Source of the DNA: Spinacia oleracea
Lineage: Eukaryota > Streptophyta > Magnoliopsida > Caryophyllales > Amaranthaceae
NCBI RefSeq assembly: GCF_020520425.1
Contig: NC_079487.1
Location: 84,573,141-84,637,140 of the forward strand
Reading direction: 5' to 3'
DNA length: 64,000 bases
Made by a program: the position numbers and the translations under genes. A model generated the notes under the pieces. The model had not been told where the DNA came from, ran no database searches, and saw only the letters and a list, made by a program, of their open reading frames with translations. Shown here in pieces: positions 7,132 to 40,042 of the stretch. Position 1 is the stretch's first letter; every line of letters begins with the position of its first letter.

Positions 7132-7890
7132 GTCTCCCACTTGTCCTTAGGGACAAGTGTGCATTACCTAATTCCTTTGTCGCTTGATGCTTGCTCTTGA
7201 ACATAAGGTAAGAGTTGTCATCCATATTATGTCCATAGGTGTTTCTCGGTTTCAGAGTTCAACTGATCAAATAAACAGATAATCATAACCTATGATTCAT
7301 CCGAGCACGGCCATGCATTTTACAGTTTCTAGCTCTCCGAGTGGCCTTGTACAACTTTTAAGCATCTCATCCCGATTTATGGGAGGATAATCCCAATCTT
7401 GCGATCTTGAGATTAGACTTCGTTTGATAGGTGATTACCTGAGCGTTGCCTTTATAGCCTCCTTTTACGGTGCGACGGTTGGTCAACGTCAAAGTAACCA
7501 GTTCTCAAACAAGTAATCTCAAATCACTCAGGTATTGAGGATTTAGTGTCTAATAATTTTAATGAAATTTACTTATGACAGATTTTCATCTCTTACAGTA
7601 AAGTTTCATAGGTCTGTCCGATACTAGTCTTCCCAAAGTAAGTATCTATGCAAATGATTATGACATTGCCATGTCCACATAGTTCAAGAAACATAACTAC
7701 TAGTCATCTTGCATTCTAGTCGTCTAACGTTTTCTATGCGTCCAATTTTACAGAAAACTCCGACCAGGGACCATTTTCAACTTTTGACATTCAAGTTCAC
7801 TTGATAGACATTTCTTAGTCACAGGACTGGTCCTGACAGTCTATCTTGAATATATCATCAAATTGAAGGGACTCATCATTTAATAAACCA
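7132..7890 (-). mobile_element. Duplicated 3'-UTR fragment of the minus-strand Copia element
   Basis: It matches 18449-19207 (polypurine tract and 3' untranslated region of element B) almost base for base and stops at AAACCA (7885-7890). There it joins the leader of plus-strand element A. No coding sequence is present. The shared ACCA at 7887-7890 marks the breakpoint. Confidence 0.8.
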
Positions 7891-10800
7891 TTAATTTGAA
7901 TGTAATTGGTCTAAAGTACCAAAGTTATTTTTCAATTCAAATATGGTCTGCGTACCATCAAATAGTTGTAATTAGTTATAGCTTATCCTATTTGAAGAAA
8001 ATGGTGCCTCCCACGGAGATTTTCAGACGGACTTTGAAGTCAAAGCTTCAAGATGAAGTCGGGCCATACTAGATCACATTTATCTTATGCATGCTTTAAG
8101 TTATTTATTGCTTTAAATATGTCTTAATTATGCATAAGATTGTGGCTTGATTATGTTGCATGATTAAGGATTTTAGTTCACTTAAAATCTAACCAACATA
8201 GTAAGAGCCTTAAGTTCCAAACTTAAAAATTGAGTTAAAAGGTGCCATGCCAAAATATACACTTGCTTGGATATCCTTTACATCAATCTAGTAATAGTTT
8301 TCGCTCAGCGAGGTGTTACTTATTGGTCCTAAAGGGGCAAGGTACACAAATAATTGTGAGTACATGTTAGTTTTGGTGAAACTCAACGATATAAGTAAGG
8401 TGTCCTTTTATGTCGTGGCAAAATCGATAGGTTTACCTAATAAGTTCTTAGACGTACCTATCAACCAAGAATAGTTTCTAGACTATTAGCAAAAGGCTTT
8501 TGCTTACCTAAGATGTTTTAGGATTAAGTCGACAAACTGTGCTTAGTTCTTCAATGATTTTAGGATCTTGGAATCATTTTATTCACACCTGCCGGAACAC
8601 ATAACTTGAATAAAATGCTTAATAAACATTGAATTATGCATGTATGCTAGAATTTAAGTTTATTAAGAGAAACTGTGAATGGTTATTTATTTGTTTATTA
8701 TTTTCAATTGTAGTTTTTAATATGGCAAACAACAATTCATTCAACATTCGATCAATTCTCGAAAAGGAGAAGTTGAACGGGAAAAACTTCCTTGACTAGC
8801 AAAGGAACTTGCAAATAGTTCTTATGCAGGAAGAAAAGGAGTATGTCCTAGATGAGGCGATGCCCGAAGCCGCAGGCGACGGGGTCACTCAGGCAGCCCT
8901 CAATCGTTGGATTGATGCCAACAAGGATGTGAAATGTCTAATGCTCGCCACCATGAGTGCGGATCTGCAGAAAACGTTCATCAACTCAGATGCTTTCACA
9001 ATCATCAGTGAGTTGAAGAACATGTTCCAAGATCTGGCTCGAGTCGAAAGATTCGAGACTCATAGGCAAATTCTTGAGACCAAGCTTAAGAAAGGCGAGC
9101 CCGTAAGTCCACATGTTCTCAAAATGATTGGACTCATTGAGAATATGAGTCGGCTGGATCAGCAATTTTCTCAGGAAATGGCTATAGACACCATCCTCCA
9201 TTCTCTTCATAGCGGGTATGATCAGTTCAAACTGAACTACAGTATGAATAGTCTGGACAAAACGCTCACTGAGCTTCACGGTATGCTGAAGACCGCGGAA
9301 AAGACGCTCAAAAGTGATAAGCAGGATGTTTCTTATGGTGCGTGGGGGAAAGTTCAAGAAATCTGGAAAGAAGAGGAATGATAAGAAAGGTGGCAACAAG
9401 GCCAGCCCAACTAAGCAAACTGGCGCCAAATCTGTAAAGAGGAAGGTCAGTCAACCCACTTCTGAATCCGAATGCTTCTACTGCAAGAAGAAGGGGCATT
9501 GGAAGAGAGATTGCTTGAAGCTAAAGGAAGATCAGAAGAACGGAACAGTCGTTCCATCTTCAGGTATTTTCGTTATAGACTGTATACTTGATAATTCAAC
9601 TTCTTGGATATTAGATACAGGTTGTGGCTCACACTTATGTTCCAATCCACAAGGACTAAGAAGAAGTAGAAAGTTAAGCAAGGATGAAGTCGACCTACGA
9701 GTGGGAAATGGAGCACGGATTGCTGCATTAGCTGTAGTTACTTACTTTTTGTCGTTGCCCTCCGGGCTAGTTTTGGAACTGGAAGAATGTTTCCATGTTC
9801 CAAGTCTTACTAAAAACATCATTTCAGTTTCTTGCTTAGATGCTAAGGGATTTTCCTTTTTAATAAAAGACAATAGTTGTTCGTTTTATTTTAAAGAGAT
9901 ATTTTATGGATCTGCTAGATTAGTCAATGGACTTTATTAATTAGATCACGACAAACAAGTATATAACATAAATACCAAAAAGGCCAAAAAGGATGATTCA
10001 GATCTCACCTATCTGTGGCATTGTCGATTAGGCCATATAAACTTGAAACGCTTAGAAAGACTTCAAAAGGAAGGAATTCTAGAACCATTTGACTTAGAAG
10101 ATTATGGTAAATGCGAATCATGTTTACTTGGCAAAATGACAAAGCAACCTTTCTCTAAAGTTGGAGAAAGAGCAAATGAACTATTGGGTTTAATCCATAC
10201 AGATGTATGTGGACCAATGAGTACAAATGCTAGAGGTGGTTTCAACTACTTTATCACTTTCACTGATGACTTCAGTAGATATGGTTATGTCTACCTAATG
10301 AAGCATAAGTCTGAATCCTTTTACAAATTCAAGGAATTTCAGAGTGAAGTAGAGAATCAATTAGGCAAGAAGATTAAGGCACTGCGGTCTGATAGAGGCG
10401 GTGAATATCTGAGCTATGAATTTGATGACCATCTGAAAGAATGTGGAATTCTATCAGAATTGACTCCTCCTGGAACACCACAATGGAACGGTGTGTCGGA
10501 ACGGAGGAACAGAACCTTGCTAGACATGGTCAGGTCAATGATGGGTCAGGCCGAACTTCCATTAGAATTTTGGGGACATGCACTAAATACAGCTGCACTC
10601 ACTATAAATAGAGCTCCGTCTAAAGCTGTCGAAAAGACTCCATACGAAGTATGGTTTGGAAAGCCTCCAAAGCTGTCAAACGATTAATTTCAGACAAACT
10701 TCATCCAAAATCTGACAAATGTATCCTTGTGGGCTATCCAAAGGAAACAAAGGGGTATTACTTCTACAATACATCTGAGAACAAGGTGTTTGTTGCTCGA

Positions 10801-12655
10801 GATGGTGTCTTTTTGGAGAAAGATCACATTTCCAAAATGACAAGTGGGAGAAAAGTAGACCTCGAAGAAATTCGAGTCGAACAACAAACTCTAGAGAATG
10901 CTCAAGATGACATTCAGGATGAAACTCAGAGATCTTTAGAAGAATCTGGTGAGAATCATGGTCAATCTAGAAATGTTACCCCGTGTAGATCGCAAAGATA
11001 TAGATCTCAACCGGAAAGGTACTTAGGTATTTTGACGAACGAGAGCTATGACGTTCTATTACTTGAAAGTGATGAACCTGCGACTTCTAAACAAGCTATG
11101 ACGAGCCCTAGCTCCAAGCAGTGGCAAGAAGCCATGCAATCTGAATTAGACTCCATGTCTGAAAACCAAGTATGGGATTTGGTCGATTTGCCAGATGGCT
11201 ACCAAGCCATTGGAAGCAAATGGGTTTTCAAACTGAAAAAGGACAAGGATGGGAAACTTGAAGTTTTCAAAGCTAGATTGGTTGCAAAAGGTTACAGGCA
11301 AGTCCACGGTGTGGATTACGATGAAACCTTTTTACCAGTTGCAATGCTAAAGTCTATTCGGATAATGTTAAGCAATCGCTGCATATTACGATTACGAAAT
11401 ATGGCAGATGGATGTCAAAACTGCTTTCTTAAACGGCGTTTTAACAGAAACTGTGTTTATGACACAGCCTGAAGGTTTTGAGGATCCAAAGAATGCTAAA
11501 AAGGTATGCAAGCTAAAGAAGTCAATCTACGGATTGAAGCAGGCATCCAGGAGCTGGAATATACGTTTTGATGAAGCAGTCAGTGACTTTGGTATCATCA
11601 AGAACGCGGACGAATCTTGTGTATACAAGAAGGTCAGTGGGAGCAAAATTGCTTTCCTAGTATTATATGTCGACGACATATTACTTATCGGAAATGACAT
11701 TCCTATGTTGAACTCTGTCAAGATTTGGCTTGGGAAATGTTTTTCGATGAAAGATCTAGGAGAAGCACAGTACATATTGGGCATCAAGATTTACAGAGAT
11801 AGATCTAAAAAGATGATTGGACTTAGTCAAAGCACTTATATCAATAACGTGCTTGATAGGTTCAAGATGGCGGACTCCAAGCGAGGCTACCTACCCATGT
11901 CTCATGGAATGACTCTAAGCAAGACTCAGTGCCCAAAAACACTTGATGAGCGTAGACGAATGAATGGGATTCCATATGCATCATTGATTGGTTCAATAAT
12001 GTATGCTATGATATGTACACGCCCGGATGTTGCGTACGCACTTAGTGCTACGAGCAGATACCAGTCAGACCCAGGAGAGGCGCATTGGACTGCTGCCAAG
12101 AACATTCTGAAGTACCTGAAAAGGCACAAAGATGACTTCCTGGTCTATGGTGGAGATGATGAATTAATTGTTAAAGGCTATACGGACGCAAGTTTCCAAA
12201 CCGACAAAGATGATTTCAGATCACAGTCTGGGTTTGTCTTCTGCCTCAACGGAGGAGCAGTAAGCTGGAAAAGTGCTAAGCAAAGCACCATTGCGGATTC
12301 TACAACTGAAGCGGAGTACATTGCTGCACATGAAGCAGCAAAGGAAGCTATATGGCTAAGGAAGTTCATAGGTGAACTCGGTGTAGTCCCCTCCATTAAA
12401 GGACCAATAGCCCTGTATTGTGATAATAACGGAGTTATTGCACAGGCAAAGGAGCCTAGACACCACCAGAGAGTCAAGCATGTACTTCGTAGATTTCACC
12501 TTCTACGAGAGTTCGTTGAAAGAAAAGAAGTCGAGATAAGCAAAATTGGTACTGATGACAACATATCAGATCCATTAACTAAACCTCTGCCGCAGGCGAA
12601 GCACAACTCGCACACTGCAGCTATGGGAATCAAGCATATTGGAGAATGGCTTTGA
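7887..12655 (+). mobile_element. Copia element A, leader and gag-pol, 5'-truncated and mutated
   Basis: Leader sequence (7887-8721) is followed by a degenerate gag-pol. Gag starts at ATG 8722 but has a Trp-to-stop TAG at 8797-8799. A +1 insertion near 9328 shifts frame before the zinc knuckle CFYCKKKGHWKRDC. The protease motif LDTGCGSHL follows, then a Leu-to-stop TAA at 9938-9940. The integrase has TDV, SDRGGEY and NGVSERRN (its DDE residues kept). A deletion of about 40 bp near 10675 and a +1 near 11370 break the region before RT. From 11408 one frame carries RT (YVDD) and RNase H to the stop at 12655. The 5' LTR, the primer-binding site and most of the leader are missing, lost at the breakpoint at 7887-7890. 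It cannot move on its own. Confidence 0.9.
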
Positions 12656-13519
12656 TGTCTCTGTTTAATGTTTTAAAGTTTTAGAGTTTAAATCTTTGTA
12701 AAACATTATTGGTTAATCATTCACAATAAATGAAAAGAATTCATTTTTCCATTTAATTTGTGGTTTATTAAAGATGAGTCCCTTCAATTTGACGATATAT
12801 TCAAGATAGACTGTCAGGACCAGTCCTGTGACTAAGAAATGTCTATCAAGTGAACTTGAATGTCAAAGGTTGAAAATGGTCCCTAGTCGGAGTTTTCTAT
12901 AAAATTGGACGCATAGAAAACGTTAGACGATTAGAATGCAAGATGACTAGTAGTTCTGTTTCTTGAACTATGTGGACATGGCAATGTCATAATCATTTGC
13001 ATAGATACTTACTTTGGGAAGACTAGTATCGGACAAGACCTATGAAACTTTACTGTAAGAGATGAAAATATTTCATAAGTAAATTTCATTAAAATTATTA
13101 GACACTAAATCCTCAATACCTGAGTGATTTGAGATTACTTGTTTGAGAACTGGTTGCTTTGACGTTGACCAACCGTCGCACCGTAAAAGGAGGCTATAAA
13201 GGCAACGCTCAGGTAATCACCTATCAAACGAAGTCTAATCTCAAGATCACAAGATTGGGATTGTCCTCCCATAAATCGGGATGAGATGCTTAAAAGTTGT
13301 ACGAGGCCACTCGAAGAGCTAGAAACTGTGAAATGCATGGCCGTGCTCGGATGAATCATAGGCTATGATTATCTGTTTATTTGATCAGTTGAACTCTGAA
13401 ACCAAGGAACACCTCTGGACATAATAAGGATGACAACTCTTACCTTATGTTCAAGAGCAAGCATAGAGCGACAAAGGAATTAGGAAATGCACACTTGTCC
13501 CTAAGGACAAGTGGGAGAC
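12656..13519 (+). mobile_element. Element A 3' untranslated region and polypurine tract
   Basis: Non-coding DNA between the pol stop and the 3' LTR. It ends in GACAAGTGGGAGAC, the polypurine tract directly before the LTR TG at 13520. It matches, in reverse, the 3' UTR of B (18449-19312), as expected for one family. Confidence 0.8.
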
Positions 13520-14963
13520 TGAAGGAAATAATGCCCTTGGTCCAAGTATGCATTCAATGATAAGTCTAATAAATGCGGTTCAGTATTAATTAACAAGTTA
13601 ATAATTCAGTGAGATCAAGTGAGCTAAATGCCTAGCTAGAGGCCGCTTCAGTTCAAGTGGAATTAATGATATTAATCCACAGCTTACTCTTGACTGAACC
13701 CGTAGGGTCACACAAATAGTACGTAAACGGATCAAGTATTTAATGGCATTAAATACTCCATCTATGGATATTCGGAATCGACGGATCTTGGTTTCAGTGG
13801 GAGCTGAGATCGTCACAGGCAAGAAATGAATACTCCGGAAACGATGATATTGCCGGAAACGGAAATATGGATCGTATCGGAAATATAAATATTATCCAAG
13901 TCGTAGATGTTGCCGGAAACGGAAACATGGTACGTGTCGGGAAATATTATCGGAAATGGAAACATTGCCGGAATCGAAAATATTGCCGGAAACGGAAATA
14001 TTGTCAGAATCGGAAATATTATCGGAATCGGAAAATAATTCCGGAAACGGAAATATTAAATATTTGTTCGAAACGGAAATTAATTCCGGAATCGAAAATA
14101 TTAAATATTGTTCGTATCGGAAATATATTCCGGAATCGGGAATTTAATCGGAAGCGTATCGTACGAATAAGCATCGGACAAGGCCTGCCGGACGAGGGCC
14201 CAGCACGAAGCCAGGCCATCGCCCAGCAAGCCAAGCGCGCCACACGAACAGCCAAGGCCACGCCAGGCCCAGCACAAGGCCAGGCCCAGCAGCGCGCACA
14301 GCGCGCGCAGCGCGCGCAGCTGCGAGCAGTGGGCTGCGAGCATTGCTGCAGCTCGCGTGGGCTTGTAGCTCGCGTGGGCCGTGCGGCCGTGTGGGCTGTG
14401 CGCGGGCATGGCCTGCACGCTTGCGGGTCATGCTCGCGTAAGTGTTTGTGTTCGCATACGAAACCTAAAACGTGCAGAATTCGTTTAATGATTAAATTCC
14501 TAATTCTATTTGATAAATTAATTAAATAAGAGTTTTATTATAATTCTAATTTAATTAATTCGTATCCTAATAGGATTCCAATTCTCTTTCCATACCCCTA
14601 TAAATATGTGGCCTGGGTTCACAATTTATAACGAGTTATTCAAGTATTCAAAGTGAGTTTTTGAGAGAAAAATTCAGTCACACATCTTGCTCAAAAGTGC
14701 CGAAAATTTATAGTACCTTAGGGGCGATTCTAGTTGGTCAATCTTAAGGCGGATCTGGACGTGCTGTGGACTATCTACGGAGGGACGACACTTGGAGTCC
14801 TAAAGACTTGTTCTTGTTCGGTTCGGGCGCAGCTAGGGAAGGCACGCAACAAAGAGTATGCATCTAAACTATGCTAAATGATTATGTGTAAATAATATGT
14901 ATTCCTGGCTTAATGGTTGTTTCCGCATGATTTATAAATTGTCATATGTATCATAACCTAACA
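13520..14963 (+). mobile_element. Element A 3' LTR
   Basis: It starts TGAAGGAAATAATGCCC and ends ATAACCTAACA, followed by ATTAC (14964-14968), the same target duplication that flanks the solo LTR at 2212-3646. TATA box TATAAATA lies at 14599-14606. It carries the same CGGAAATATT minisatellite and GC block as the other LTRs but has a different number of units and a longer CAGCGCGCG stretch near 14290. Confidence 0.92.
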
Positions 14964-16788: not shown

Positions 16789-16880
16789 CTGAAACAAGGC
16801 GATCACACTGTGTAATTTCTCTCCTCTTATATGCTCTCCCCCGACTCTTATGTTTTTCTTTTTGTTTGATAATATGACTC

Positions 16881-17052: not shown

Positions 17053-18448
17053 TGTTAGGTTATGATACATATGAACAACATAAATCATGCGGAAAAACCT
17101 TAATGCCAGGATACATATTAATTGCACATAATCATATAATTAGTCAAGGATGCATACACTTTGTAGCGTGCCCTCCCTAGCTGCGCCCGAACCGAACAAG
17201 AACAAGTCTTTAGGACTCCAAGTGTCGTCCCTCCGTAGAAAGTCCACAGCACGTCCGGATCCGCCTTAAGATTGACCAACTAGAATCGCCCTTAAGGTAC
17301 TACTTATTTTCGGCTAAATAGGGCAAGTGTTATGGCTGATTTTTCTGCTTAAAAATCCTAGCTTTGAATACTTGAAAACTTGTGTATAAATTTGTGAACC
17401 TAGGCACATATTTATAGAGTCATGGAAAAGGATTTAGAATCCTATTAGAATACCAATTAGTTTAATTAGAATCCCTTTAGAACTCTACTAAATAAATTCT
17501 ATCTACTAGGATTAGGATTTAATCATAGAACGAATTCCGATAGATTTAGGATTCGTATCGCACACAACCACACACGAGCACGAGCACCGCACAACCCGCG
17601 CAAGCCTTGCGGCCCACGCGAGCTGCACTGCTCGCAGCCCATGTTGCGCGCGCGCCATGCTGGGCATGGCCTTGTGCTGGGCCTGGCGTGGCCTTGCTAC
17701 GTTGTGTTGATGCGCATGGCTTGTTGGACGCAGGCCTGGCTTCGTGTTGGGCCTTCGTCTAGCAAGTCTCGTCCGATGCTAATTCGTACGACGCGCTTCC
17801 GATTAAATTCCCGATTCCGGAATTCATTTCGGGTACGAACAATATTTAATATTTCCGATTCCGGAATTAATTTCCGTTTCGAACAAATATTTAATATTTC
17901 CGTTTCCGGAATTATTTTCCGATTCCGATAATATTTCCGATTCAGACAATATTTCCGTTTCCGGCAATATTTCCGATTTCGGCAATATTTCCGATTCCGG
18001 CAATATTTCCATTTCCATCAATATTTTCCGATACGTACCATGTTTCCGTTTCCGGCAACATCTACGACTTGGATAATATTTATATTTCCGATACGATCCA
18101 TATTTCCGTTTCCGGCAATATCATCATTTCCGGAGTATTCATTTCTTGCTTGTGACGATCTCAGCTCCCACTGAAACCAAGATTCGTCGATTCCGAATAT
18201 CCATAGATGGAGTATTTAATGCCATTAAATACTTGATCCGTTTACGTACTATTTGTGTGACCCTACGGGTTCAGTCAAGAGTAAGCTGTGGATTACTGTC
18301 ATTAATTCCACTTGAACTGAAGCGGCCTCTAGCTAGGCATTCAGCTCACTTGATCTCACTGGATTATTAACTTGTTAATTAATACTGAACCGCATTTATT
18401 AGACTTAATATTATATGCATACTTGGACCAAGGGCATTATTTCCCTCA
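17053..18448 (-). mobile_element. Outer 3' LTR of the composite (probable B/C recombinant)
   Basis: The reverse-oriented LTR starts TGAGGGAAATAATGCCC at 18448, just after the polypurine tract, and ends at 17053 beside TCTTT. It is 1,396 bp long. Its upstream part should derive from B and its end from C if the deletion model is right. An identical-looking copy is at 5732-7131. Confidence 0.9.
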
Positions 18449-19312
18449 GTCTCCCACTTGTCCTTAGGGACAAGTGTGCATTACCTAATTCCTTTGTCGC
18501 TTGATGCTTGCTCTTGAACATAAGGTAAGAGTTGTCATCCTTATTATGTCCATAGGTGTTTCTCGGTTTCAGAGTTCAACTGATCAAATAAACAGATAAT
18601 CATAACCTATGATTCATCCGAGCACGGCCATGCATTTTACAGTTTCTAGCTCTCCGAGTGGCCTTGTACAACTTTTAAGCATCTCATCCCGATTTATGGG
18701 AGGATAATCCCAATCTTGCGATCTTGAGATTAGACTTCGTTTGATAGGTGATTACCTGAGCGTTGCCTTTATAGCCTCCTTTTACGGTGCGACGGTTGGT
18801 CAACGTCAAAGTAACCAGTTCTCAAACAAGTAATCTCAAATCACTCAGGTATTGAGGATTTAGTGTCTAATAATTTTAATGAAATTTACTTATGACAGAT
18901 TTTCATCTCTTACAGTAAAGTTTCATAGGTCTGTCCGATACTAGTCTTCCCAAAGTAAGTATCTATGCAAATGATTATGACATTGCCATGTCCACATAGT
19001 TCAAGAAACAGAACTACTAGTCATCTTGCATTCTAGTCGTCTAACGTTTTCTATGCGTCCAATTTTACAGAAAACTCCGACCAGGGACCATTTTCAACTT
19101 TTGACATTCAAGTTCACTTGATAGACATTTCTTAGTCACAGGACTGGTCCTGACAGTCTATCTTGAATATATCGTCAAATTGAAGGGACTCATCATTTAA
19201 TAAACCACAAATTAAATAAAAAAATGAATTCTATTCATTTATTGTGAATGATTAACCAATAATGTTTTACAAAGAATTAAACTCTAAAACTTTTAACCAT
19301 TAAACAAGGACA
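18449..19312 (-). mobile_element. Element B 3' untranslated region with polypurine tract
   Basis: Non-coding DNA between the B pol remnant and the LTR. RC of GACAAGTGGGAGAC adjoins the LTR at 18449. The first 759 bases are duplicated at 7132-7890. Confidence 0.75.
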
Positions 19313-22300: not shown

Positions 22301-23252
22301 ACTTTCTACTTCTTCTTAGTCCCTGTGAATTGGAACATAAGTGTGAGCCACAACCTGTATCTAATACCCAAGAAGTTGAATTAGCAAGTATACAGTCTAG
22401 AACGAAAATACCTGAAGATGGAACGACTGTTCCATTCTTCTGATCTTCCTTTAGCTTCAAGCAATCTCTCTTCCAATGCCCCTTCTTCTTGCAGTAGAAG
22501 CATTCGGATTCAGAAGTGGGTTGACTGACCTTCCTCTTTTCAGACTTGGCGCCAGTTTGCTTAGTTCGGCTGGCCTTGTTGCCACCTTTCTTAGCATTCC
22601 TCTTCTTTCCAGATTTCTTGAACTTGCCCCCACGCACCATAAGCACATCTTGCTTATCACTTTTGAGCGTCTTTTCAGCGGTCTTCAGCATACCGTGAAG
22701 CTCAGTGAGCGTTTTGTCCAGACTATTCATACTGTAGTTCAGCTTGAACTGATCATACCCGTTATGAAGAGAATGGAGGATGGTGTCTACAGCCATTTCC
22801 TGAGAGAACTGTTGATCCAGCCGACTCATATTCTCAATGAGTCCAATCATTTTGAGAACATGTGGACTTACGGGCTCGCCTTTCTTAAGCTTGGTCTCAA
22901 GAATTTGCCTATGAGTCTCGAATCTTTCGACCCGAGCCAGATCTTGGAATATGTTCTTTAACTCACTGATGATCGTGAAAGCATCTGAGTTGATGAACGT
23001 TTTCTGTAGATCTGCACTCATGGTTGCAAGAATTAGACATTTCACATCCTTGTTGGCATCAATCCAACGATTGAGGGTTACCTGAGTGACCCCTTCGCCT
23101 GCGGCTTCGGGCATCGCCTCTTCCAGGACATACTCCTTTTCTTCCTGCATAAGAACTATTTGCAAGTTCCTTTGCCAGTCAAGGAAGTTTTTCCCGCTCA
23201 ACTTCTCCTTTTCGAGAATTGATCGAATGTTGAATGAATTATTGTTTTCCAT
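19313..23252 (-). pseudogene. Element B gag-pol, long open frame but inactivated
   Basis: From ATG 23252 (MENNNSFNIRS) a single frame runs to 20013, about 1,079 residues. In order it holds: UBN2-type gag, zinc knuckle CFYCKKKGHWKRDC, protease LDTGCGSHL, the pre-integrase H-C motif (HCRLGHINLKH), integrase and RT. Two catalytic residues are changed. The integrase Glu of NGVSERRN is Val (21474-21476), and the RT box reads YVND instead of YVDD (Asn codon 20268-20270). Translation stops at a TAG after SKT, where A has Gln. Further small deletions follow, near 19860 and in RNase H near 19520. The frame length suggests a young copy, yet the protein could not copy or integrate itself. Confidence 0.9.
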
Positions 23253-25897: not shown

Positions 25898-27296
25898 TGA
25901 TAGGTTATGATTCATATGACAAAACATAAATCATGCGGAAAAACCATAAAGCCAGGACAGCATATTATTTACACATAATCATTTAGCATAGTTTAGATGC
26001 ATACACTTTGTTGCGTGCCCTCCCTAGCTGCGCCCAAACCGAACAAGAACAAGTCTTTAGGACTCCAAGTGTCGTCCCTACGTAGATAGTCCACAACACG
26101 TCCGGATCCGCCTTAAGCTTGACCAACTAGAATCGCCCTTAAGGTTGCTTAGGAATTTCGGCTAATATGGTGCAAGTGTATGGCTGATTTTTCTTCAAAA
26201 TCTTACCTTTAGAATACTTCAATTGTATCTATAAATTATGACCCTAGGCACCTATTTATAGAGGTATGGAAAAGGAACTGGAATCCTATTAGGATACGAA
26301 TTAATTAAACTAGAATCCTAATAGAACTCTTATTTAATTAATTTATCCTTTTAGGATTAGGAATTTAATCATACATCGAAACCTGATAGCTTTAGGATTC
26401 GTATAGCACACAAACACACACACGCACGCACAGCAGCCCACGAGGGGCGCCATGCGCGCGCGCGCAGCCCGCGAGCTCGCAGCCTATTGCCACGAGGCCC
26501 ACACGCTGCCGCAACCTTGGCGCCCGGTGGGCCTGCCTTGCGGTGGGCCTGGCGCAGCCTTGGATGGTGCGTTGTGGCGCGCTGGCTTGCTGGGCGATGG
26601 CCCGGCTTCGTGCTGGGCCTTCGTCCGGCAGGCCTCGTCCGATGCTAATTCGTACGATACGCTTCTGATTAATTTCCCGATTTCGGAATTCATTTCCGAT
26701 ACAAACAATATTTAATATTTCCGATTCCGGAATTAATTTCCGTTTCGAACAAATATTTAATATTTTCGTTTCCGGAATTATTTTCCGTTTCCGATAATAT
26801 TTCCGATTCAGACAATATTTCCGTTTCCGGCAATATTTCCGATTCCGGCAATATTTCCATTTCCATCAATATTTTCCGATACGTACCATGTATCCGTTTC
26901 CGGCAACATCTACGACTTGGATAATATTTATATTTCCGATACGATCCATATTTCCATTTTCGGCAATATCATCGTTTCCGGAGTATTCATTTCTTGCTTG
27001 TGACGATCTCAGCTCCCACTGAAACCAAGATCCGTCGATTCCGAATATCCATAGATGGAGTATTTAATGCCATTAAATACTTGATCCGTTTACTTACTAT
27101 TTGTGTGACCCTACGGGTTCAGTCAAGAGTAAGATGTGGATTAATGTCATTAATTCCACTTGAACTGAAGCGACCTCTAGCTAGGCATTCAGCTCCCTTG
27201 ATCTCACTGAATTATTAACTTGTTAATTAATACTGAACCGCATTTATTAGACCTAATATTATATGCAAACGTGGACCAAGAGCATTATTTCCTTCA
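25898..27296 (-). mobile_element. Element B 5' LTR, inserted in the RNase H region of C
   Basis: A complete 1,399-bp LTR in reverse orientation, from TGAAGGAAATAATGCTC at 27296 to ATAACCTATCA at 25898. It is clearly more diverged from the outer LTRs than they are from each other. Its exact terminus abuts the C coding sequence (...KQSTIADS) at 27297, which argues for insertion rather than random breakage. The expected second copy of the 5-bp target (GAATC) is absent, consistent with later deletion. Confidence 0.88.
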
Positions 27297-30200
27297 GAAT
27301 CCGCAATGGTGCTTTGCTTAGCACTTTTCCAGCTTACTGCACCTCCGTTGAGGCAGAAGACAAACCCAGACTGTGATCTGAAATCATCTTTGTCGGTTTG
27401 GAAACTTGCGTCTGTATAGCCTTTAACAATTAATTCATCATCTCCACCATAGACCAGGAAATCATCTTTGTGCCTTTTCAGGTACTTCAGAATATTCTTG
27501 GCAGCAGTCCAATGTGCCTCTCCTGGGTCTGACTGGTATCTGCTCGTAGCACTGAGTGCATACGCAACATCCGGGCATGTACAAGCACCTTTCAAGCACC
27601 TTATTGATATAAGTGCTTTGACTAAGTCCAATCATCTTCTTAGATCTATCTCTGTAAATCTTGATGCCCAGTATGTACTGTGCTTCTCCTAGATCCTTCA
27701 TCGAAAAACATTTCCCAAGCCAAATCTTGACAAAGGTCAACATAGGAATGTCATTTCCGATAAGTAATATGGCGTCGACATATAATACTAGAAAAGCAAT
27801 TTTGCTCCCACTGACCTTCTTGTATACACAAGATTCGCCTGCGTTCTTGATGAAACCAAAGTCACTGACTGCTTCATCAAAACGTATATTCCAGCTCCTT
27901 GATGCCTGCTTTAATCCGTAGATTGATTTCTTAAGCTTGCATACCTTTTTAGCATTCTTTGGATCCTCAAAACCCTCAGGCTGTGTCATAAACACAGTTT
28001 CTGTTAAAACGCCTTTTAAGAAAGCGGTTTTGACATCCATCTGCCATATTTCGTAATCGTAATATGCAGCGATTGCTAACATTATCCGAATAGACTTTAG
28101 CATTGCAACTGGTGAAAAGGTTTCATCGTAATCCACACCGTGGACTTGCCTGTAACCTTTTGCAACCAATCTAGCTTTGAAAACTTCAAGTTTCCCATCC
28201 TTTTCCTTTTTCAGTTTGAAAACCCACTTGCTTCCTATGGCTTGGTAGCCATCTGGCAAATCGACCAAATCCCAAACTTGGTTTTCTGACATGGAGTCTA
28301 ATTCAGATTCCATGGCTTCTTGCCATTTCTTGGAGCTAGGGCTCGTCATAGCTTGTTTGTAAGTCGCAGGTTCATCACTTTCAAGTAATAGAACGTCATA
28401 GCTCTCGTTCGTCAAAATACCTAAGTACCTTTCCGGTTGAGATCTATATCTCTGCGATCTACGCGGGGTTGCATTTCTAGATGGTCCATGATTCTCACCA
28501 GATACTTCTAAAGATCTCCGAGTTTCATCCAATGTCATCTTGAGCATTCTCTAGATTTTTTTGTTCGACTTGAATTTCTTCGAGGTCTACTTTTCTCCCA
28601 CTTGTCATTTTGGAAATGTGATCCTTTTCCAAAAAGATACCATCTCGAGCAACAAACACCTTGTTCTCAGATGTATTGTAGAAGTAATACCCCTTTGTTT
28701 CCTTTGGATAGCCCACAAGGATACATTTGTCAGATTTTGGATGAAGTTTGTCTGAAATTAATCGTTTGACGTATACTTCACATCCCCAAATCTTAAGAAA
28801 AGACATATTTGGAGGCTTTCCAAACCATAACTCATATGGAGTCTTTTCAACAGCTTTAGACGGAGCTCTATTTATAGTGAGTGCAGCTGTATTTAGTGCA
28901 TGTCCCCAAAATTCTATTGGAAGTTCGGTCTGACCCATCATTGATCTAACCATGTCTAACAAGGTTCTGTTCCTCCGTTCTGACACACCGTTCCATTGTG
29001 GTGTTCCAGGAGGAGTCAATTCTGATAGAATTCCACATTCTTTCAGATGGTCATCAAATTCATAGCTCAGATATTCACCGCCTCTATCAGACCGCAGTGC
29101 CTTAATCTTCTTGCCTAATTGATTCTCTACTTCACTCTGAAATTCCTTGAATTTGTCAAAGGATTCAGACTTATGCTTCATTAGGTAGATATAACCATAT
29201 CTATTGAAGTCATCAGTGAAAGTGATAAAGTAGCTGAACCCACCACTAGAATTTGTACTCATTGGTCCACAAACATCTGTATGGATTAAACTCAATAGTT
29301 CAGTTGCTCTTTCTCCAACTTTAGAGAAAGGTTGCTTTGTCATTTTGCCAAGTAAATATGATTCGCACTTACCATAATCCTCTAAGTCAAATGGTTCTAG
29401 AATTCCTTCTTTTTGAAGTCTTTCCATGTGTTTCAAGTTAATATGGCCTAATCGACAATGCCACAGATAGGTGAGATCTGAATCATCCTTTTTTGCCGTT
29501 TTGGTATTTATGTTATAAACTTGTTTGTCGTGATCTAATAAATAAAGTCCATTGACTAATCTAGCAGATCCATAAAACATCTCTTTAAAATAAAACGAAC
29601 AACTATTGTCTTTTATTAAAAAGGAAAATCCCTTAGCATCTAAGCAAGAAACATAAATGATGTTTTTAGTAAGACTTGGAACATGGAAACAGTCTTCCAG
29701 TTCCAAAACTAGCCCAGAGGGCAACGACAAATAATAAGTTCCTACAGCTAATGCAGCAATCCTTGCTCCATTTCCCACTCGTAGGTCGACTTCACCCTTG
29801 CTTAACCTTCTACTTCTTCTTAGTCCATGTGGATTGGAACATAAGTGTGAGCCACAACCTGTATCTAATACCCAAGAAGTTGAATTAGCAAGTATACAGT
29901 CTATAACGAAAATACCTGAAGATGGAACGACTGTTCCGTTCTTCTGATCTTCCTTTAGCTTTGGACATTCTCTTTTGTAATGGCCTATTCCATCACAATA
30001 AAGACGGCTTGATGTGGACTTGTCCTGCTTTGATTTAGCATTGCCCTTGGAGTTTCCACCTTTCTTGAAGGGTCTCCCTTTAGCCTTGAGTAAATCTTTG
30101 GCTTCACAGTCGAGTATTATCTCAGCCTTTCTGACAAGGTGAACAAATTCCGCAACTGTTTCTTCTCTTGGTTCACTTAGGTATAGTTGCTTGAAGCGAC

Positions 30201-30777
30201 CAAACCCACTGTGCAGTGAATTGAGCAAGATAGAGACTGCCATCCTTTCGCTTATTGGTGTTCTTAGCAGACTTAGGCGATTAAAATATGAAAGCATAAG
30301 CTCCACATGGAACCTCAGTGGGACGCCTACCCTCTGTTTAGTGCGAAGGAGCTGAACATGTGTTTCTTGGACCTCCATCCTATAACACCTGTTAGGAGAA
30401 CTAACCTTTAGACCAGACATTGATTCAATCAACTCATGGACGTTTAGGTCCCTTTCCTCCGTGCTTCCACGACAGATATCCCTCAGATTCTTGATGAGCG
30501 TAAAAGGTTCGTAAGCTACAAACCTTCTAGCCCATTCATCAGGGATATTGTTCAGCATGAGACTCATAACCTTTTTGAGATCCGCATCCCAGGCGGCAAA
30601 TCTTTCAGGGGTCATGTCTCTGGTATAGTAGCTTGGCATGTGATGTAACAGTACATACTCAAGTCCATTGAGTCTGACTATTTCAACTAGCTTAGCTTCC
30701 CATTCAAGAAAATTTGTTAGGTTCAGCTTGACCATAAGCTCAGAACCCATGATGATGTTTTGATTGTTGTTTTCCAT
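27297..30777 (-). pseudogene. Element C gag-pol with a foreign gag; truncated in RNase H
   Basis: Gag to mid-pol is open from 30777 to 28525, then a 2-base loss near 28527 shifts the frame, and pol resumes at 28547. From KLKEDQKNGTVVPSSGIF onward the protein is almost the same as A and B. The gag before it (NLTNFLEWEAKLVEIVRLNG, 'DEWARRFVAYEPFTLIKNL') is unrelated to theirs beyond the UBN2 fold. The zinc knuckle reads RLYCDGIGHYKREC, so its first Cys is missing. Integrase NGVSERRN is intact. The RT box reads YVDA (Ala codon 27771-27773), which removes a catalytic Asp. RNase H stops at IADS where the B LTR begins. Confidence 0.9.
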
Positions 30778-31130
30778 AGTAAAACTACAATAGAAAAAGA
30801 ATAAACAAATAAATAATCATTCACAGTTTCTCTTAATAAACTTAAATTCTAGCATGCATGCATAATTTAATGTTCATTAAGCATTTTATTCAGGTTATGT
30901 GTTCCGGCATGTGTGAATAAAATGATTCCAAGACCCTAAAACCATTGAAGAATTAAGCAAATTATGTATTTTGACAAAATTCTAAAATCTTTTAGGTAAG
31001 CAAAAGCCGAGCTTATTAGGTAAATCTATTGAATTTTCCACGGCATAAAAGGACTCCTTACTTATATCGTTGAGTTTCACCAAAACTAACATGTACTCAC
31101 AATTATTTGTGTACCTTACCCCTTTAGGAT
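30778..31130 (-). mobile_element. Element C leader, part next to gag
   Basis: Matches the B leader just upstream of its gag (23253-23660). It is interrupted by the CACTA element at 31131 and continues at 36372. Confidence 0.75.
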
Positions 31131-31948
31131 CACTACTACAAAAATGGGGATAGAGTACTGTTGAAATATACTTTATAGGACGCCTTAGAGGCGTTCTTCA
31201 ACTCAACGCGCTATAAAGTTTATAAAACGGGTAAAAGAAGCGTTTTATATACCTAGTTATAAAGTACAGCGATAAGAGATAAGCGTCCTCTATTCCCTTC
31301 CTAAAATCAGGAAATAAAGAAGGAATATAGAACGGTTAACGTATATAACCGTCTCCTATACTCTATAATAAAGCGCGCCTTCCGCACATAACCGTCCTCT
31401 ATTCTTCCTATTAAATATTGAGATTAGAACATCTTCCGTACTTAGGCGTACTATATACTTCATGTTTAATATTAAAATAGAAAGTTGTTTCCTTACACAA
31501 CCGTTCTATATTCTACCCTTTTTTTTTAATATTATTTAAAAATAGCCTACGCATTTTTTATTAATATTTTTTATTTAAAAATAGGATATTACAATTCCAG
31601 TATGTAAACCAAATCTAAAACGATAAAATAAAAAAGATATCGACACGATCTTTCCAAAAATCATTTTATTAAATAACAAAATAATATTGTTCATTCTATA
31701 ACAAAATCCTATTATTCATTCATAAAATAAATAAATAAATCACTGTAAAAAAATCCAATATCACTGTAAAAAAAAAAAAAATCAACAGCAACAGCAGGAA
31801 CTCAACAGCAACAGCACGAACTCAACAGCGCGCAACAGCACGAACAATTCTGCAGCAACAGCAGCGTCTGCAGCAGGAACAGACTGCAGCAACAGCAGCT
31901 TCTGCAGCAGGAACAACAACAACCATGTCCTTGATGAGCTAGCTTAAG

Positions 31949-34900
31949 TCACACTAGATCATCGTCATCATCATCTTCATCTTCATCGTTATTTGGTTGG
32001 GGATACTCGGTAACATATGAGATCCACCTCTCCCTTAGCTCGTCGATCGTAGTTTGAGAATACGTGGGAGTTTTGGAAAAATACTACAAGACTAAGTTAA
32101 AATATAAGAGTAAGAAAGAACATGATAGCAAGCAGAAATAGTATTCTTTGAGCTGTAACAAGATATTCTGATTTGCGTAGCAAACTGTAAGCCTAGCATA
32201 ACAAAGGTATCTAAGATCCGAGTAAAGATAGAAGCTACTGTATTTCATAACCCTAGAACGATGAACAACTCTGCAGCCAACATTCTATACATGAATCATC
32301 GAAAAAGAATATGCCGAGTTGTGGCAAAAAAATCTCTGAATATAGAGACAACGATAATGTAAAGAAGTATAACCAAAATATCTATAAGATGAAACCTAAA
32401 AGAACAAATATATAAGCACAACATTCAAAAGGAAAGCCGCAGGTGCAGCAGTCCTCAGACCAGAGGAAGCTATCTGGATGGTCAAATTGCAATTTCCTGT
32501 GGAGATATTCTGAGTCGTTAGCTTAGCCAAACCTCTAAAGTTGCAGGCCTCAAGTTTTTGATACTGGGTCTGATAGTAGACATTAAAGGCATAGGAGATA
32601 TTCTCATTAGCATCTAATCCATGACAAGAGGATCCATACCCTAGAGGAGTATAATCAGCATAAGTGCTTGCAAAATTAATGTTATCTCCCAGCTTGCTCA
32701 GATCCCTAGCATATTTGGGTTAAACTCACACCATTCGTTCTCGAGATAATTGTTACTGAGAACCAAAACACCATCCCTATAGCATACTGGATATGGAATT
32801 GGCTTCGGATGCTCAGGAAAAAACAAGAGAGTGACGATAACGAAACTGCCTACTTTACAGCTACTCTTTGGGCAATATGGTGTATGAGAAATGATATCAC
32901 CTTCATTAACAAAAAATGCAATGCAAAAACCATCCTGGAACAAATTGAGAGAGACTACAGGTCGGAGATGAAAAGTGTTGAGAAGATATGACACCAGGGC
33001 CAGGAACAGGAACTCAGAGGATGATCTAACAGAACCACCAGCAGCAAAGACCACTAGTGACAGTAGCCAAACTACCTTGTGGACAAATGCAACTACACCA
33101 GACGATTAACTTATCAAATCCGAATTACTAATTAAAATTTGTACCATCTAGAGTTCTTCATTTCCTCAATTTCGGAAAATTCCCACCTTAATATTGTTAA
33201 TTCACTAATGCTTTTATCACATGATCAACTAATTTTACTGGAACTGATTTCACATGAGCTGAAAAGAATGGCCCCTACTATATTATCAGAAGATCAATTT
33301 TCTATTTCATAAAAGATGTCAGACATTAAAAGCCAAGCACATTGTCCACAACCAAACAACAGTAACCCGTAGCCCAAGTTCAAGACTAACAAATATATAC
33401 ACAGTGCTTTATTCCAGAATAAAACAAAATCCAGCAAACAATCCAAAGACCCCAGAAATACTTCAAATACAGCAAATGTAGTAGAAATAGGAAGAGAGTT
33501 TCGATGCAATAGATTCTAGAATAAAAAATAAGCAATGCATCAGAAGCAAGCAATACCTTTTCAGGAATGAACATTTGTCTCAACTCTATTGTTTCAATCA
33601 TGTAGCGACCAACATAATATCCACTTTCCTTGAAGCCTGGAGGTTGGCGAGGGCACTATTACACAAGAAAGTTTACAACATAATTAAGCACCTAAGAATA
33701 CAACGTATTAACAAACTAATATTGTTACGAAATTGTAATAAATATCACATACCTCAATTTTTTGCCACTTAATGAAAGGGTTCTTCTTTGTTTTTGGGAT
33801 ATCCTTTCGGTAATCCGCGCTAAATTTGATGATTGCCTTAAGTAATTGTTAATAGTTTAGTTATGTAATTTTAATATATTACAATAGGAAAAATATATGA
33901 AAAAATAAGTAATTTAGTACATACCTGTTGATTATTGTTTAAGCAAATTCGGGAGGTTCATTTTGTGCTCCAAGTGGATCTAACCACTGAACCAATGCAA
34001 TCCATGGACAAATAACAACCAACATCCAATCCCGACTACACACACAAAAATAAAAACAAATATCATATTGTCCGGGGATGTAGGGTCAGGTACTGTGATT
34101 ATAGATACTATTGTTTCTGTTGCAAAGTACTAATTAAAATATTAGCTGAAAAATTCACTTACTCTTCTATATAGGGCAAGAAGAATAGTTGATATTTATT
34201 TTTGCCATCATTGCACGCAAATACCCTATATAAATAGTCACATCGATCGTCTTCTTTTTCCACACGTCTTAGCGGGGATAGATAGGTGCAATCACAAAAT
34301 CTATATAGCCCAGAGATGCCATCTTTGAGAACCATCTCACTCAGATGCCTTGCACATCAAAAAACAATTAAATCATTTTTTAGAAACCAATATATACATT
34401 TACTTGGAATCAGAAAGGGTACAACACACTTACATCATTAAAATCAACATGTGAGATGATCTTATCTCTCTTTGAAAGCACCAATCAAGCATGTCTTCAT
34501 AATCAAGGCTAACACATTGCTCATTTAGGAACACTCTAGCCGGGATCGTGAAGGATTTGGTTTTTCCGCTCTTTTTCATTCCAATAGCTACATCCTTGAA
34601 AACTTTAACCAAATTAGAAGTCAACTTTAACCTATCAGTTGGAGTGATCGTATACTTTCGAGTGCATGATGATTGTGATGATGGCGAGCGTGGAGATGGC
34701 GCGGTGAATTCCTTTGTTATTTATTTATCAGCAGCCTTGTTATACATTAACACGAAAAAGAAGATAAATAAAAAGTATGTAAAAACTATAGGCTGAATGA
34801 AATAAATAAGTATCGTCATATGTAATGCATAAAATTTACATAACGTACCTTCTTTAACGGAAAAACCAAATGAGAAGGCCATATTAAAAATCTACCCGAG

Positions 34901-34984
34901 CTTTGACAAACAAATTTTATTTCCCCCTCGGGACATGGCAATTCTGCACTTGAGTTGACATCTTCTTTAATACAAACTCGATAA
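31949..34984 (-). pseudogene. CACTA accessory gene: DUF8039-like plus Ulp1-like (C48) pseudoprotease
   Basis: Spliced minus-strand exons can be followed. About 34849-34984: 'VCIKEDVNSSAELPCPEGEI' and 'SGRFLIWPSHLVFPLKK', DUF8039-like. 34434 to about 34707: KSGKTKSFTIPARVFLNEQC. 34163-34348: HLSEMVLKDG to FFLPYIEE. 33925-34035: DWMLVVICPWIALVQWLDPLG. 33753-33836. 33557-33655: CPRQPPGFKESGYYVGRYM. 31949-32083: YSQTTIDELRERWISYV plus an acidic tail. GT-AG borders fit. In C48 proteases the core is HW...(W)LD and ECGYYV; here they read DW...WLD and ESGYYV, so the catalytic His and Cys are gone. A TAA (33939-33941) interrupts the exon after WLDPLG, and the frame does not carry into the next exon. 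An upstream 5' part may include 35657-35944, where 'LQPLL(A/G)RK' is internally repeated. Confidence 0.7.
32809..32991 (+). pseudogene. LINE reverse-transcriptase C-terminal fragment
   Basis: The frame contains 'FTATLWAIWCMRNDITFINK', which resembles the region after the zinc-binding domain of plant LINE proteins (usual form LWxIWxxRNxxxF). Only about 60 residues remain. It lies in the large intron of the accessory gene on the opposite strand. Confidence 0.5.
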
Positions 34985-36371: not shown

Positions 36372-38642
36372 GATCAATAAGTAACACCTCGCTGAGCGTA
36401 AAACTATTACTAGATTGATGTAAAGGTTATCCAAGTAAGTGTTATTTTGGCATGGCACCTTTTAACTCAATTTTTAAACTTTGGAACTTAAGGCTCTTAC
36501 TATGTTGGTTAGATTTTAAGTGAACTAAAATCCTTAATCATGCAACATAATCAAGCCATAATCTCATGCATAATTAAGACATATTTAAAGCAATAAATAA
36601 CTTAAAGAATGCATAAGATAAATGTGATCTAGTATGGCCCGACTTCATCTTGAAGCTTCAACTTCAAAGTCCGTCTTGAAAATAGATTGGAAACTCCGTC
36701 TTGAATTTCTCCATGGGAGGCTCCATTTTCTTCAAATAGGATCAGCTATAATTAAACTAATTACAACTATTTGATGGTACGCAGACCATATTTAAAAGCA
36801 ATAAAATTTGGTACTTTAGACCAATATTACATTCAAATTAATGGTACGCAGACCATATTTTCTATTCTATTTGGGCCATACTAGTCACTTTCAATAACCT
36901 GCAAAACAGTACATATACAATATATACCATTCACCCATTCATTATCATGAATGGCCCACATAGCTGGTTAGTAAAACACATTGTTATGCATCACATAAAT
37001 ATTTGCAGCAATTAATCAAGGGCACCAATAATCTACCAATTATTCAGTCCTTATTAATTCTAATCAAGTTGTTTTAACCTTAAAGGATTGTAGACCTAAT
37101 CAAGAGTTTATGACTAAAAATGCTCCCACTTAAACCAATAACTTTATATGCTTTACTAATTTCAAACATAGAAATGTATTTCTAGTCTAACCGGAAACAT
37201 ACAAGTTTAATTAAAATTTAAAGCTCATATAAAATTATAATCGAATCCATATGTTTAATTTATTTTCAGTTGAATTAAATGAATTTAAATTAATTCAAGG
37301 TTTAATTTTAGTAAAATAACTAGTGTAAATTAAAATTTATAATAATTATAATAATCAAAATTAAATTCCGAGAAAACAATTTAAATTATTAATTTTAAAG
37401 TTAATTAAAATTATTTCCGAACTGAAAATCCAAACTAAAACCAAAACGTGTCAATCGTCGCAAGACGAGGCACTTGGGCTTGCGCCCAAGCCCCATCGAG
37501 CCACGAGGCCGCATCGCCCTCCGACTGACCGTTGCACAAGGCACGAGTAGCAGCAGCCATGCGCAAACGCAGCAAGCCACGCCACGCTTGCGCGCAGCCT
37601 GCTCGCCCGCATCGCATCGCAGCAGCTCTCCCTCGCAAGGCATCGCTCGCTGCGCGAGGCAGTGCGCGATGTGGCGCAGCTCGCTTGCTGCCCACACGCG
37701 ACTGCTCGCAGTGCCTTGACCATCGCCCATCGCTCATCTCCCATGGCATAGCACACACGGCCAGCACAATTGCCTCGTGCGCGCACCATGCTATGTTGCT
37801 CACTGCATTCGTACCGCAAGGGCGACGAGCTCCCTTGCTCGTCGTCGCGTGCCCGCACTATACAACACCCCTTAAGGGTAACACGTAGCGACCATTGCTT
37901 TGTGCGTGCAACATTCATGAGCGATTTTCATAAAACTAAAAAATTTTAATTTAAAATTAACGACAAATTAATACATCATATTAATTTCATAATTTTAGGG
38001 CGAAAAATCAAAAATTTATTAATTAATTAATTTCCGATTAACATGGATTCAAATCTTGCTCATAAAAATTTAAAATTTATCATAAATTAACAATTTTTAT
38101 GGTGGTTTTTAATCATGGCTACCTAATTAAATCGTCAATTAATTATGAAAATCAAATCAAATTCTAAATTATTCGAATTTCAACAAATTAATTACAATTA
38201 CAAATTAGGTTGTATAATTAACAAGCTTAGGCATTCAATTTGTTAAACATATACAGTAGGTCAATCAAAAATTCAAGATTTAACAACAAGAATCCCAAAT
38301 ATTCAATTTAACATCTTAAAATTACAAACTTTTGCGTTAGAAAAACTAAAACGTCCGAAAAGTCATAGTTAGGCTTCGAATTTGGGAATTCTGGGTTCGG
38401 CCGAAAAATAGTGTTTTTGTCAAAGTTTTAGAATGCATTTTACATGCGGAATTGACACAAAAATCACTCGATTTGGTTGAGTAACGAAGAAACTGCCGAA
38501 AAACTGCGTACATATAATTAAATAAACGCAATTTTCAATTAATTAACAATTACGAAAATTAATCACCCCTTTTAATTCCTTGCAAATTTGTAAAATTTAA
38601 CCATGTTAAGCAATTTATAGATTATGCAAATAATAATAACCT
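36372..38642 (-). mobile_element. Element C leader, LTR-proximal part
   Basis: Continues the leader after the CACTA element, with the same order of landmarks as B: a pair of 'GGTACGCAGACCATATTT' repeats, an AT-rich part, and a GC-rich block at about 37450-37900. No family protein is encoded. Confidence 0.75.
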
Positions 38643-38655
38643 GGCTCTGATACCA
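38643..38655 (-). other. Primer-binding site of element C (initiator tRNA-Met)
   Basis: The minus strand reads TGGTATCAGAGCC one base after the LTR end at 38657, as in B. Confidence 0.9.
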
Positions 38656-38656
38656 C

Positions 38657-40037
38657 TGTTAGGTTATGATACATATGAACAACATAAATCATGCGGAAAA
38701 ACCTTAATGCCATGATACATATTAATTGCACATAATCATATAATTAGTCTAGGATGCATACACTTTGTAGCGTGCCCTCCCTACCTGCGCCCGAACCGAA
38801 CAAGAACAAATCTTTAGGACTCCAAGTGTCGTCCCTCCGTAGAAAGTCCACAGCACGTCCGGATCCGCCTTAAGATTGACCAACTAGAATCGCCCTTAAG
38901 GTACTACTTATTTTCGGCTAAATAGGGCAAGTGTTATGGCTGATTTTTCTACTTAAAAATCCTATCTTTGAATACTTGAAAACTTGTGTATAAATTTGTG
39001 AACCTAGGCACATATTTATAGGGTCATGGAAAAGGATTTAGAATCCTATTAGAATACCAATTAGTTTAATTAGAATCCCTTTAGAACTCTATTAAATAAA
39101 TTCTATCTACTAGGATTAGGATTTAATCATAGAACGAATTCTGATAGCTTTAGGATTCGTATCGCACACAACCGCACACGAGCACGAGCACCGCACAGCC
39201 CGCGCAAGCCTCGCGGCCCACGCGAGCTGCACTGCTCGCAGCCCTCGAGCATTACTCGCAGCCCATTTTGCGCGCGCGCCATGCTGGGCCTGGCCTTGTG
39301 CTGGGCCTGGCGTGGCCTTGCTGCATTGTGTTGATGCGCATGGCTTGCTGGACGCAGGCCTGGCTTCGTGTTGGGCCTTCGTCTAGCAAGTCTCGTCCGA
39401 TGCTAATTCGTACGACGCGCTTCCGATTAAATCCCGATTCCGGAATTCATTTCCGATACGAACAATATTTAATATTTCCGATTCCGGAATTCATTTCCGT
39501 TTCGAACAAATATTTAATATTTCCGTTTCCGAAATTATTTTTCCGATTCCGATAATATTTCCGATTCTGACAGTATTTCCATTTCCGGCAATATTTCCAT
39601 TTTCGATAATATTTTCCGATACGAACCATGTTTCCGTTTCCGGCAACATCTACGACTTGGATAATATTTATATTTCCGATACGATCCATATTTCCGTTTC
39701 CGGCAATATCATCGTTTCCGGAGTATTCATTTACTTGCCTTTGACGATCTTAGCTCCCACTAAAACCAAGATCCGTCGATTCCGAATATCCATAGATGGA
39801 GTATTTAATGTCATTAAATACTTGATCCGTTTACGTACTATTTGTGTGACCCTACGGGTTCAGTCAAGAGTAAGTTGTGGATTAATATCATTAATTCCAC
39901 TTGAACTGAAGCGACCTCTAGCTAGGCATTCAGCTCACTTGATCTCACTGAATTATTAACTTGTTAATTAATACTGAACCGTATTTATTAGACTTAACAT
40001 TAAATGCATACTTGGACCAAGGGCATTATTTCCTTCA
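38657..40037 (-). mobile_element. Element C 5' LTR
   Basis: 1,381 bp, from TGAAGGAAATAATGCCC at 40037 to ATAACCTAACA at 38657. The right flank is TCTTT (40038-40042), matching 17048-17052. The minisatellite has fewer units than in the other LTRs. Confidence 0.92.
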
Positions 40038-40042
40038 TCTTT

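Follow-up and report, generated by a model that had tools for sequence, protein, structure and literature searches.

Probable repeated exchange of two divergent gag modules within a Copia retrotransposon family of spinach

Results

Copia elements at the locus

The window, the whole stretch of 64,000 nucleotides of spinach DNA analysed here, contains the Copia-type elements A, B and C (Table 1). B and C lie on the minus strand in an array of the order LTR1-C-LTR2-B-LTR3 (17048-40042), with one AAAGA duplicate at its outer ends. The LTRs of the family are about 1.4 kb long with TG...CA ends. They are followed by the primer binding site TGGTATCAGAGC, whose matching primer we take to be the initiator tRNA-Met, and by a leader of about 2.6 kb in B. 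The LTR ends, the primer binding site and the 5-bp target duplicate are those of a Ty1/copia element, as is the domain order gag, protease, integrase and reverse transcriptase. In B, the Pfam domains were found in copia order (Retrotran_gag_2, zf-CCHC, Pol_BBD, gag_pre-integrs, rve and RVT_2). In C, Pol_BBD, gag_pre-integrs and rve scored over the Pfam cut-offs, and the knuckle (zf-CCHC) and the gag gave weak matches below cut-off. Angela elements have been reported to make up more than 70% of the full-length Copia elements in spinach (PMC6337768), and by abundance alone this is perhaps the lineage of the family.

The polyprotein frame of C is open from 30777 to 28525 on the minus strand (750 amino acids). 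Its RNase H, as read from the translation, ends exactly at the start of LTR2; with this lost end and the frame change in pol, the copy is dead. LTR1 and LTR3 differ by 3.8%, and LTR2 differs from them by 15% and 13%, respectively. The first 600 bp or so of LTR3 are as near or nearer to LTR2 (most clearly at alignment positions 400-500), and the rest is clearly LTR1-like. As LTR3 is chimeric, B looks nested in C, with LTR-LTR recombination having followed. The simplest history would be that B inserted into C, and that recombination of the B 3' LTR with the C 3' LTR deleted the intervening sequence.

Several further features were identified in and around these elements. The C leader is interrupted by a 5.2-kb insert flanked on both sides by the 3-bp GAT, with ends CACTACTAC/GTAGTAGTG that we take to be those of a CACTA-type transposon. 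The sequence TTTTTC-A/T-ATTGTAG lies directly before the gag ATG (30778-30805 and 23253-23280) and resembles a 3' splice site, so a leader intron, and hence a spliced gag RNA, is possible. When LTR1, LTR2 and the 3' LTR of A were compared, the first 500-600 bp agreed well and the middle (alignment positions of about 700-1200) was 20-40% different; LTR modules seem to have been exchanged between copies too. A 5.7-kb direct duplication, 98.5% identical, ends in inverted element ends. An intact-looking NB-ARC/LRR resistance-type gene with an Rx_N domain (1047 amino acids) adjoins the array, and a tandem array has units of about 58 and 66 bp with a spacing of 124.

Table 1. Features of the window, with positions counted from its first nucleotide.
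Feature	Position	Strand	Remarks
Element A, cut off in leader	7887..14963	+	B-type broken gag from 8722; 3' LTR 13518-14963
LTR3, chimera	17053..18449	-	LTR2-like first ~600 bp, then LTR1-like
B-type gag of element B	22440..23252	-	
LTR2, between C and B	25898..27297	-	5' LTR of B
C pol	27297..29941	-	one frame change; RNase H end lost at LTR2
C-type gag of element C, ~279 codons	29942..30777	-	open frame and comparison with B
Zinc-knuckle stretch of C gag	29962..30003	-	3' edge of module by linkage: codon after last Cys, 29962-29964
Central insert of C gag, 26-28 amino acids	30382..30459	-	common to family X; absent from B and seven other-lineage gags
5' edge of gag module	30762..30773	-	codon 2 to first base of codon 6; r2 0.0 to 0.94-1.0
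C leader, 3' part	30778..31130	-	82.5% to B leader (418 columns), 79.6% to A leader (421 columns)
Insert in C leader	31131-36371		
C leader, 5' part	36372..38656	-	starts with primer binding site TGGTATCAGAGC, 38644-38655
LTR1	38657..40037	-	5' LTR of C
AAAGA 5-bp duplicates, outside array	17048-17052 and 40038-40042		
Direct duplication	2210-7896 and 13518-19213		
NB-ARC/LRR gene	43093-46236	-	
Tandem array	49546-50777		

A divergent gag in a matching body

An earlier note on this DNA had described the leader and pol of C as closely matching those of A and B around a different gag. The pol comparison agreed with this, at 96.0% identity to B over 2401 columns and 94.2% to A over 2402 columns; the leader adjoining gag proved less close, at 80-83% over about 420 columns. 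The gag between the motifs MENNN and KLKEDQ is indeed different. The C and B gag proteins were 31% identical over 297 columns by BLASTP (E 2e-35) and 35% identical in the MAFFT alignment, in which 26 C residues are absent from B. The two gags are homologous but distant on this sequence evidence, with about 32% protein identity. Against the Pfam model Retrotran_gag_2 (cut-off 27), the C gag scored 14.5 bits and the B gag 41.2 bits. The zinc knuckle of the window's C copy has an Arg in place of the first Cys found in other C-type copies. A structure model of the C gag built from a two-row alignment had a mean pLDDT of 39.5 and was set aside.

Both gag types are abundant in the genome

A search of the genome (894,210,420 bases, 242 contigs) identified the C gag at no fewer than 139 scored places (93-100% identity) and the B gag at 142 or more (96-100% identity); both counts are lower bounds, as only the best candidates were scored. 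The earlier note had proposed a search for complete elements with the C-type gag, and candidates were found: an open frame of at least 1300 amino acids was present at 25 of the best 139 C-gag places, and at 26 of the best 142 B-gag places (table count). A stop inside the matched gag was seen at one of these 25 and two of these 26 places, and open frames of about 1340-1360 amino acids are found with either gag type. The C protease piece was found at 150 or more scored places. Open frames of 1353 amino acids, as in B-type copies, and of 1342 or 1360, as in C-type copies, had the same bit score there; in this search gag type was deduced from frame length. At all 11 inspected C-gag loci (of 30, the window's own included), the leader and protease-integrase match those of A and B. 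The possibility that C is a single odd copy was rejected on these flanks and on the number of C-gag places.

The copies used below comprise the best matches to the two gag queries (L001-L060) and copies chosen for long open frames (L061-L071). Each gag type is uniform, with mean pairwise differences of 2.8% and 1.8%, values that understate the diversity within gag types because L001-L060 were picked as best gag matches. Relatives were also searched for among viral contigs, where none of 22 pattern matches was confirmed.

Edges of the gag module

The linkage of individual sites with gag type (r2) was calculated across 30 C-gag and 30 B-gag loci. It was 0.7-1.0, and mostly 1.0, inside gag, and 0-0.54 outside. 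At the 5' end, a GAA/GCA polymorphism at codon 2 is common to both gag types, and full or nearly full linkage starts at codon 6. At the 3' end, the codon immediately following the knuckle's last Cys is the final fixed difference; the next informative sites lie 68 and 74 nucleotides farther on, with an r2 of 0.01, and none beyond them exceeds 0.49. The strongest leader site lies 2 nucleotides before the ATG (r2 0.54), with other leader sites at 0-0.4, and none of the leader sites is in complete linkage with gag type at these 30 + 30 loci. These edges agree with the switch points proposed earlier from the window, at the start codon and just behind the zinc knuckle. In sliding windows, between-type divergence was about the same as within-type divergence in protease-integrase and in most of the leader. 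It reached 0.37-0.47 at the two gag ends, and was somewhat above within-type divergence in the far 5' leader alignment.

Conflicting histories of gag and flanks

A single C-type clade was rejected by the AU test on 36 C and 27 B copies for the leader (p=0.0029), for protease-integrase (p=6e-105) and for both (p=5.8e-5). This set represents 63 of the 71 copies; L021, L022, L023, L030, L041, L047, L052 and L053 were dropped for long or broken flanks, and six of these eight were likewise dropped from the 65-row protease-integrase tree, in which L021 and L022 were kept. In 61-row trees, the gag label changed 8 times on the leader tree and 10 times on the protease-integrase tree, compared with a shuffled mean of about 20. 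The larger trees gave 10 changes for the leader (71 rows, shuffled 23) and 12 for protease-integrase (65 rows, shuffled 21). The well-supported (starred) branches alone force only two gag-type changes.

The nearest copy had the same gag type for 50 of 63 copies in the leader and for 46 of 63 in protease-integrase, and among the C copies the distance in gag rises with that in the leader (rho 0.74). Set against the rejection of the clade, these values indicate that gag type is partly, not wholly, free of its flanks. The earlier note had called for separate trees of gag, integrase and RT; the trees built here, of gag and flanks (leader, protease-integrase), conflict. With linkage strongest inside gag and with the AU tests assigning gag and flanks different histories, its central claim of a gag-only exchange was upheld.

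Recent and repeated exchange

L061 (C gag) and L063 (B gag) are 98.9% identical in the leader over 1146 columns and 99.0% in pol over 3281 columns, with only about half of their gag DNA identical. By comparison, L061 and L062, both with a C gag, are 97.2% identical over 5198 columns. The near-identity of leader and pol in L061 and L063 points to a recent exchange. Eight young C copies, distributed over five chromosomes, are at least 99% identical to L063 in both flanks, and represent all 8 such pairs among the 972 C-B pairs. Relative to older C copies, the young ones have diverged by 3.7% in gag, 5.8% in the leader and 3.3% in protease-integrase; relative to seven young B copies, the divergence is only 1.9% in the leader and 1.0% in protease-integrase.

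There are two C gag clades (each with a support of 100), both present on the young backbone (96 and 98). L062 carries a gag from the older C clade (100) and has its flanks in the young clade (96 and 98; SH-aLRT, quick trees). The C gag therefore entered the young backbone on two or more occasions, unless exchange went in the opposite direction equally often; either way, there were at least two exchanges.

The exchange could have taken place by gene conversion between integrated DNA copies, and not by template switching. Recombination between integrated LTRs is present in the window, in the chimera LTR3, and a first event by conversion would still be compatible with what follows; as the account of the family, we regard conversion as unlikely. 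One common mosaic is carried by the eight young C copies on five chromosomes and has therefore transposed since it formed. Furthermore, recombination at a high rate during retrotransposition, a source of mosaics, has been reported in a plant Copia family (PMC5668417).

Polarity of the exchange

Gags of other lineages were obtained through a search with the Pfam gag model (150 scored places, 114-143 bits), from which eight were fetched as outgroup and seven of the eight were used in trees. The C gag scored 115 bits against B and at most 42 bits against the eight other-lineage gags, and the B gag at most 52 bits against the same eight. As the C-B score is far above those for other lineages, the C and B gags are of one lineage, and the origin of the C gag in a remote Copia lineage was rejected.

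Outgroups of the same lineage were sought with a degenerate pattern of the protease motif (Ile for Leu), which gave 14 places, eight of which were fetched. These comprised five family members (four C-type, and the B-type L080), two members of a sister family X (L083 and L085) and a related fragment (L084). Two of the family members, L081 and L082, are C-type and have a protease 91-92% identical to that of B; the protease of family X is 71-72% identical at the amino acid level. Family X is large (at least 148 scored places, with open frames of up to 1365 amino acids). The gag of the X copy L088 scored 222-229 bits against C (41% identity) and 121-123 bits against B (30%).

In a 19-row tree of full-length gags with the other lineages as outgroup, C groups with X as (C,(X1,X2)) with a support of 98/99, and B lies outside; the outgroup family X also comprises two types of gag. 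The groupings B+C (p=0.033), B+X (p=0.024) and B+X1 (p=0.0012) were rejected, and C+X1 without X2 was not rejected (p=0.084). The central insert of the C gag is shared with family X: its site has 28-33 residues in the C and X rows, 2 in all four B rows and 2-5 in all seven other-lineage rows. Most of the insert columns are too thinly filled to contribute to the tree, so the insert represents further evidence. Taken with the C-type gags of the diverged members L081 and L082, these results lead us to read the C gag as most likely the backbone's original one, and the A/B gag as an incomer from outside the C+X clade, an assignment that is less certain. The earlier note had assumed the opposite direction, with the C gag swapped in. 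The gag tree and the shared insert favour the reverse. Of the two readings, the better supported is the one that the note had listed among its own refutations: an ancestral C gag, with the change having occurred in A and B.

An ancestral A/B gag, with C having taken up a foreign gag, appears quite improbable to us. It would fit the agreement of A and B against C in the window, and no donor family has been named for the A/B gag; with partial X gags only, B+X was not rejected (p=0.22; B+C, p=0.29). It is opposed by the full-length gag tree and the insert, both of which group C with family X, and by the gag type of L081 and L082.

Discussion

We consider it likely, with a probability of roughly three in four, that element C is a defunct member of a large Copia family that recombines and carries two gag cassettes in one backbone, the C gag being native and that of A and B incoming. 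The backbone common to both cassettes would comprise the leader before gag, the protease, the integrase and the reverse transcriptase. RNAs of both gag types would be packaged together, and reverse transcriptase would change templates where leader and protease are nearly identical; the unlike gags would hardly recombine internally and would travel whole. As only the flanks, and not the gags, are similar enough to permit switching, gag would move as a block with sharp edges, and these edges would mark the end of homology, not necessarily the first breakpoint. The flanks of C and B keep mixing, which suggests that both RNAs occur in the same particles. This argues against a change in RNA packaging through the swap, as does the lack of a leader site in complete linkage with gag type. 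The suggestion that no exchange took place, and that one branch of a single family instead underwent very rapid evolution of its gag alone, has next to nothing left in its favour: gag and protease have been described as the most variable Copia domains (PMC6317226), but half of the gag DNA differs between copies whose leader and pol are 99% identical, intermediate gags are absent from the matches listed for the C and B gags (ranked by gag match), each gag type is uniform, and the conflict of gag and flank trees, the L061/L063 flanks, the AU tests and the gag tree reject it.

Diverged gags in near-identical flanks and a conflict between trees were both found here, and by sequence comparison the family is a case of gag-exchange subfamilies of the Ty1/Ty1' or RLG_Quinta A/B kind. 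As described for Ty1/Ty1' of S. cerevisiae (PMC7055915), two Copia-type subfamilies differ chiefly in gag and one gag came in by recombination. The same source reports further recombinants within gag, near the gag-pol boundary and in pol, as well as an effect of gag type on self-restriction. Unlike here, the donor is known, S. paradoxus, through horizontal transfer (PMC7055915); the spinach family also differs in its plant host and in having far more copies. In wheat, the GAGs of RLG_Quinta A and B have about 65% DNA identity within flanks of more than 90%, much as here, and recombination, probably by template switching, was inferred by the authors (PMC11302176). RLG_Quinta is described there as non-autonomous and Gypsy-type, with GAG and without reverse transcriptase or integrase, whereas the spinach family has a whole polyprotein and repeated recent exchange.

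Among plant Copia elements, members of the ONSEN family of Arabidopsis likewise recombine at a high rate in transposition; that recombination is within one family, and no second gag type is reported in the sections of the paper cited here (PMC5668417). Conflicting domain histories have been described for plant Ty1/copia lineages and put down to ancient recombination in a study that, in the part cited, compares lineages and leaves gag out of its trees (PMC6317226), whereas the present conflict is within a family and recent. The LTR1-C-LTR2-B-LTR3 array resembles complex LTR retrotransposons in which an LTR is shared (PMC1950507). Abnormal template switching is proposed in that work; the array in the window fits B nested in C with LTR recombination. 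In a literature search of limited depth, we came across no description of a Copia family, from spinach or of the Angela type, with two kinds of gag. To these cases the present work adds a plant Copia family that is abundant, encodes a complete polyprotein and has gags of about 32% identity, together with repeated recent exchange between them and a likely assignment of native and incomer.

On this account, a plant Copia family behaves as one recombining population with two capsid genes. As gag, leader and pol each have their own history, naming or dating elements by one domain misleads. Selection may keep both gag cassettes like two alleles, with silencing or self-restriction matched to the commoner gag favouring the rarer one, an explanation that we hold to be doubtful. 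In the copy number control of Ty1, an inhibitor derived from gag restricts elements carrying that gag. If selection of this kind were at work, the lineage would have a general escape route in the recurrent replacement of gag near the zinc knuckle, of which family X also gives a hint. The family offers a natural many-copy case for asking about balancing selection on capsid genes from silencing or self-restriction.

A gag difference was also observed within family X. Between L083 and the copies L088 and L089, the leader with the gag start is 77% identical and the protease 93%, and the rest of gag is without a DNA match. The L083 gag has 47% protein identity to other X gags, and the match resumes about 145 nucleotides before the protease start. 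The observation comes from one broken copy (L083:1-1781), whose leader differs too, and perhaps represents a second, independent gag replacement, which hints at the zinc-knuckle region as a repeated switch point.
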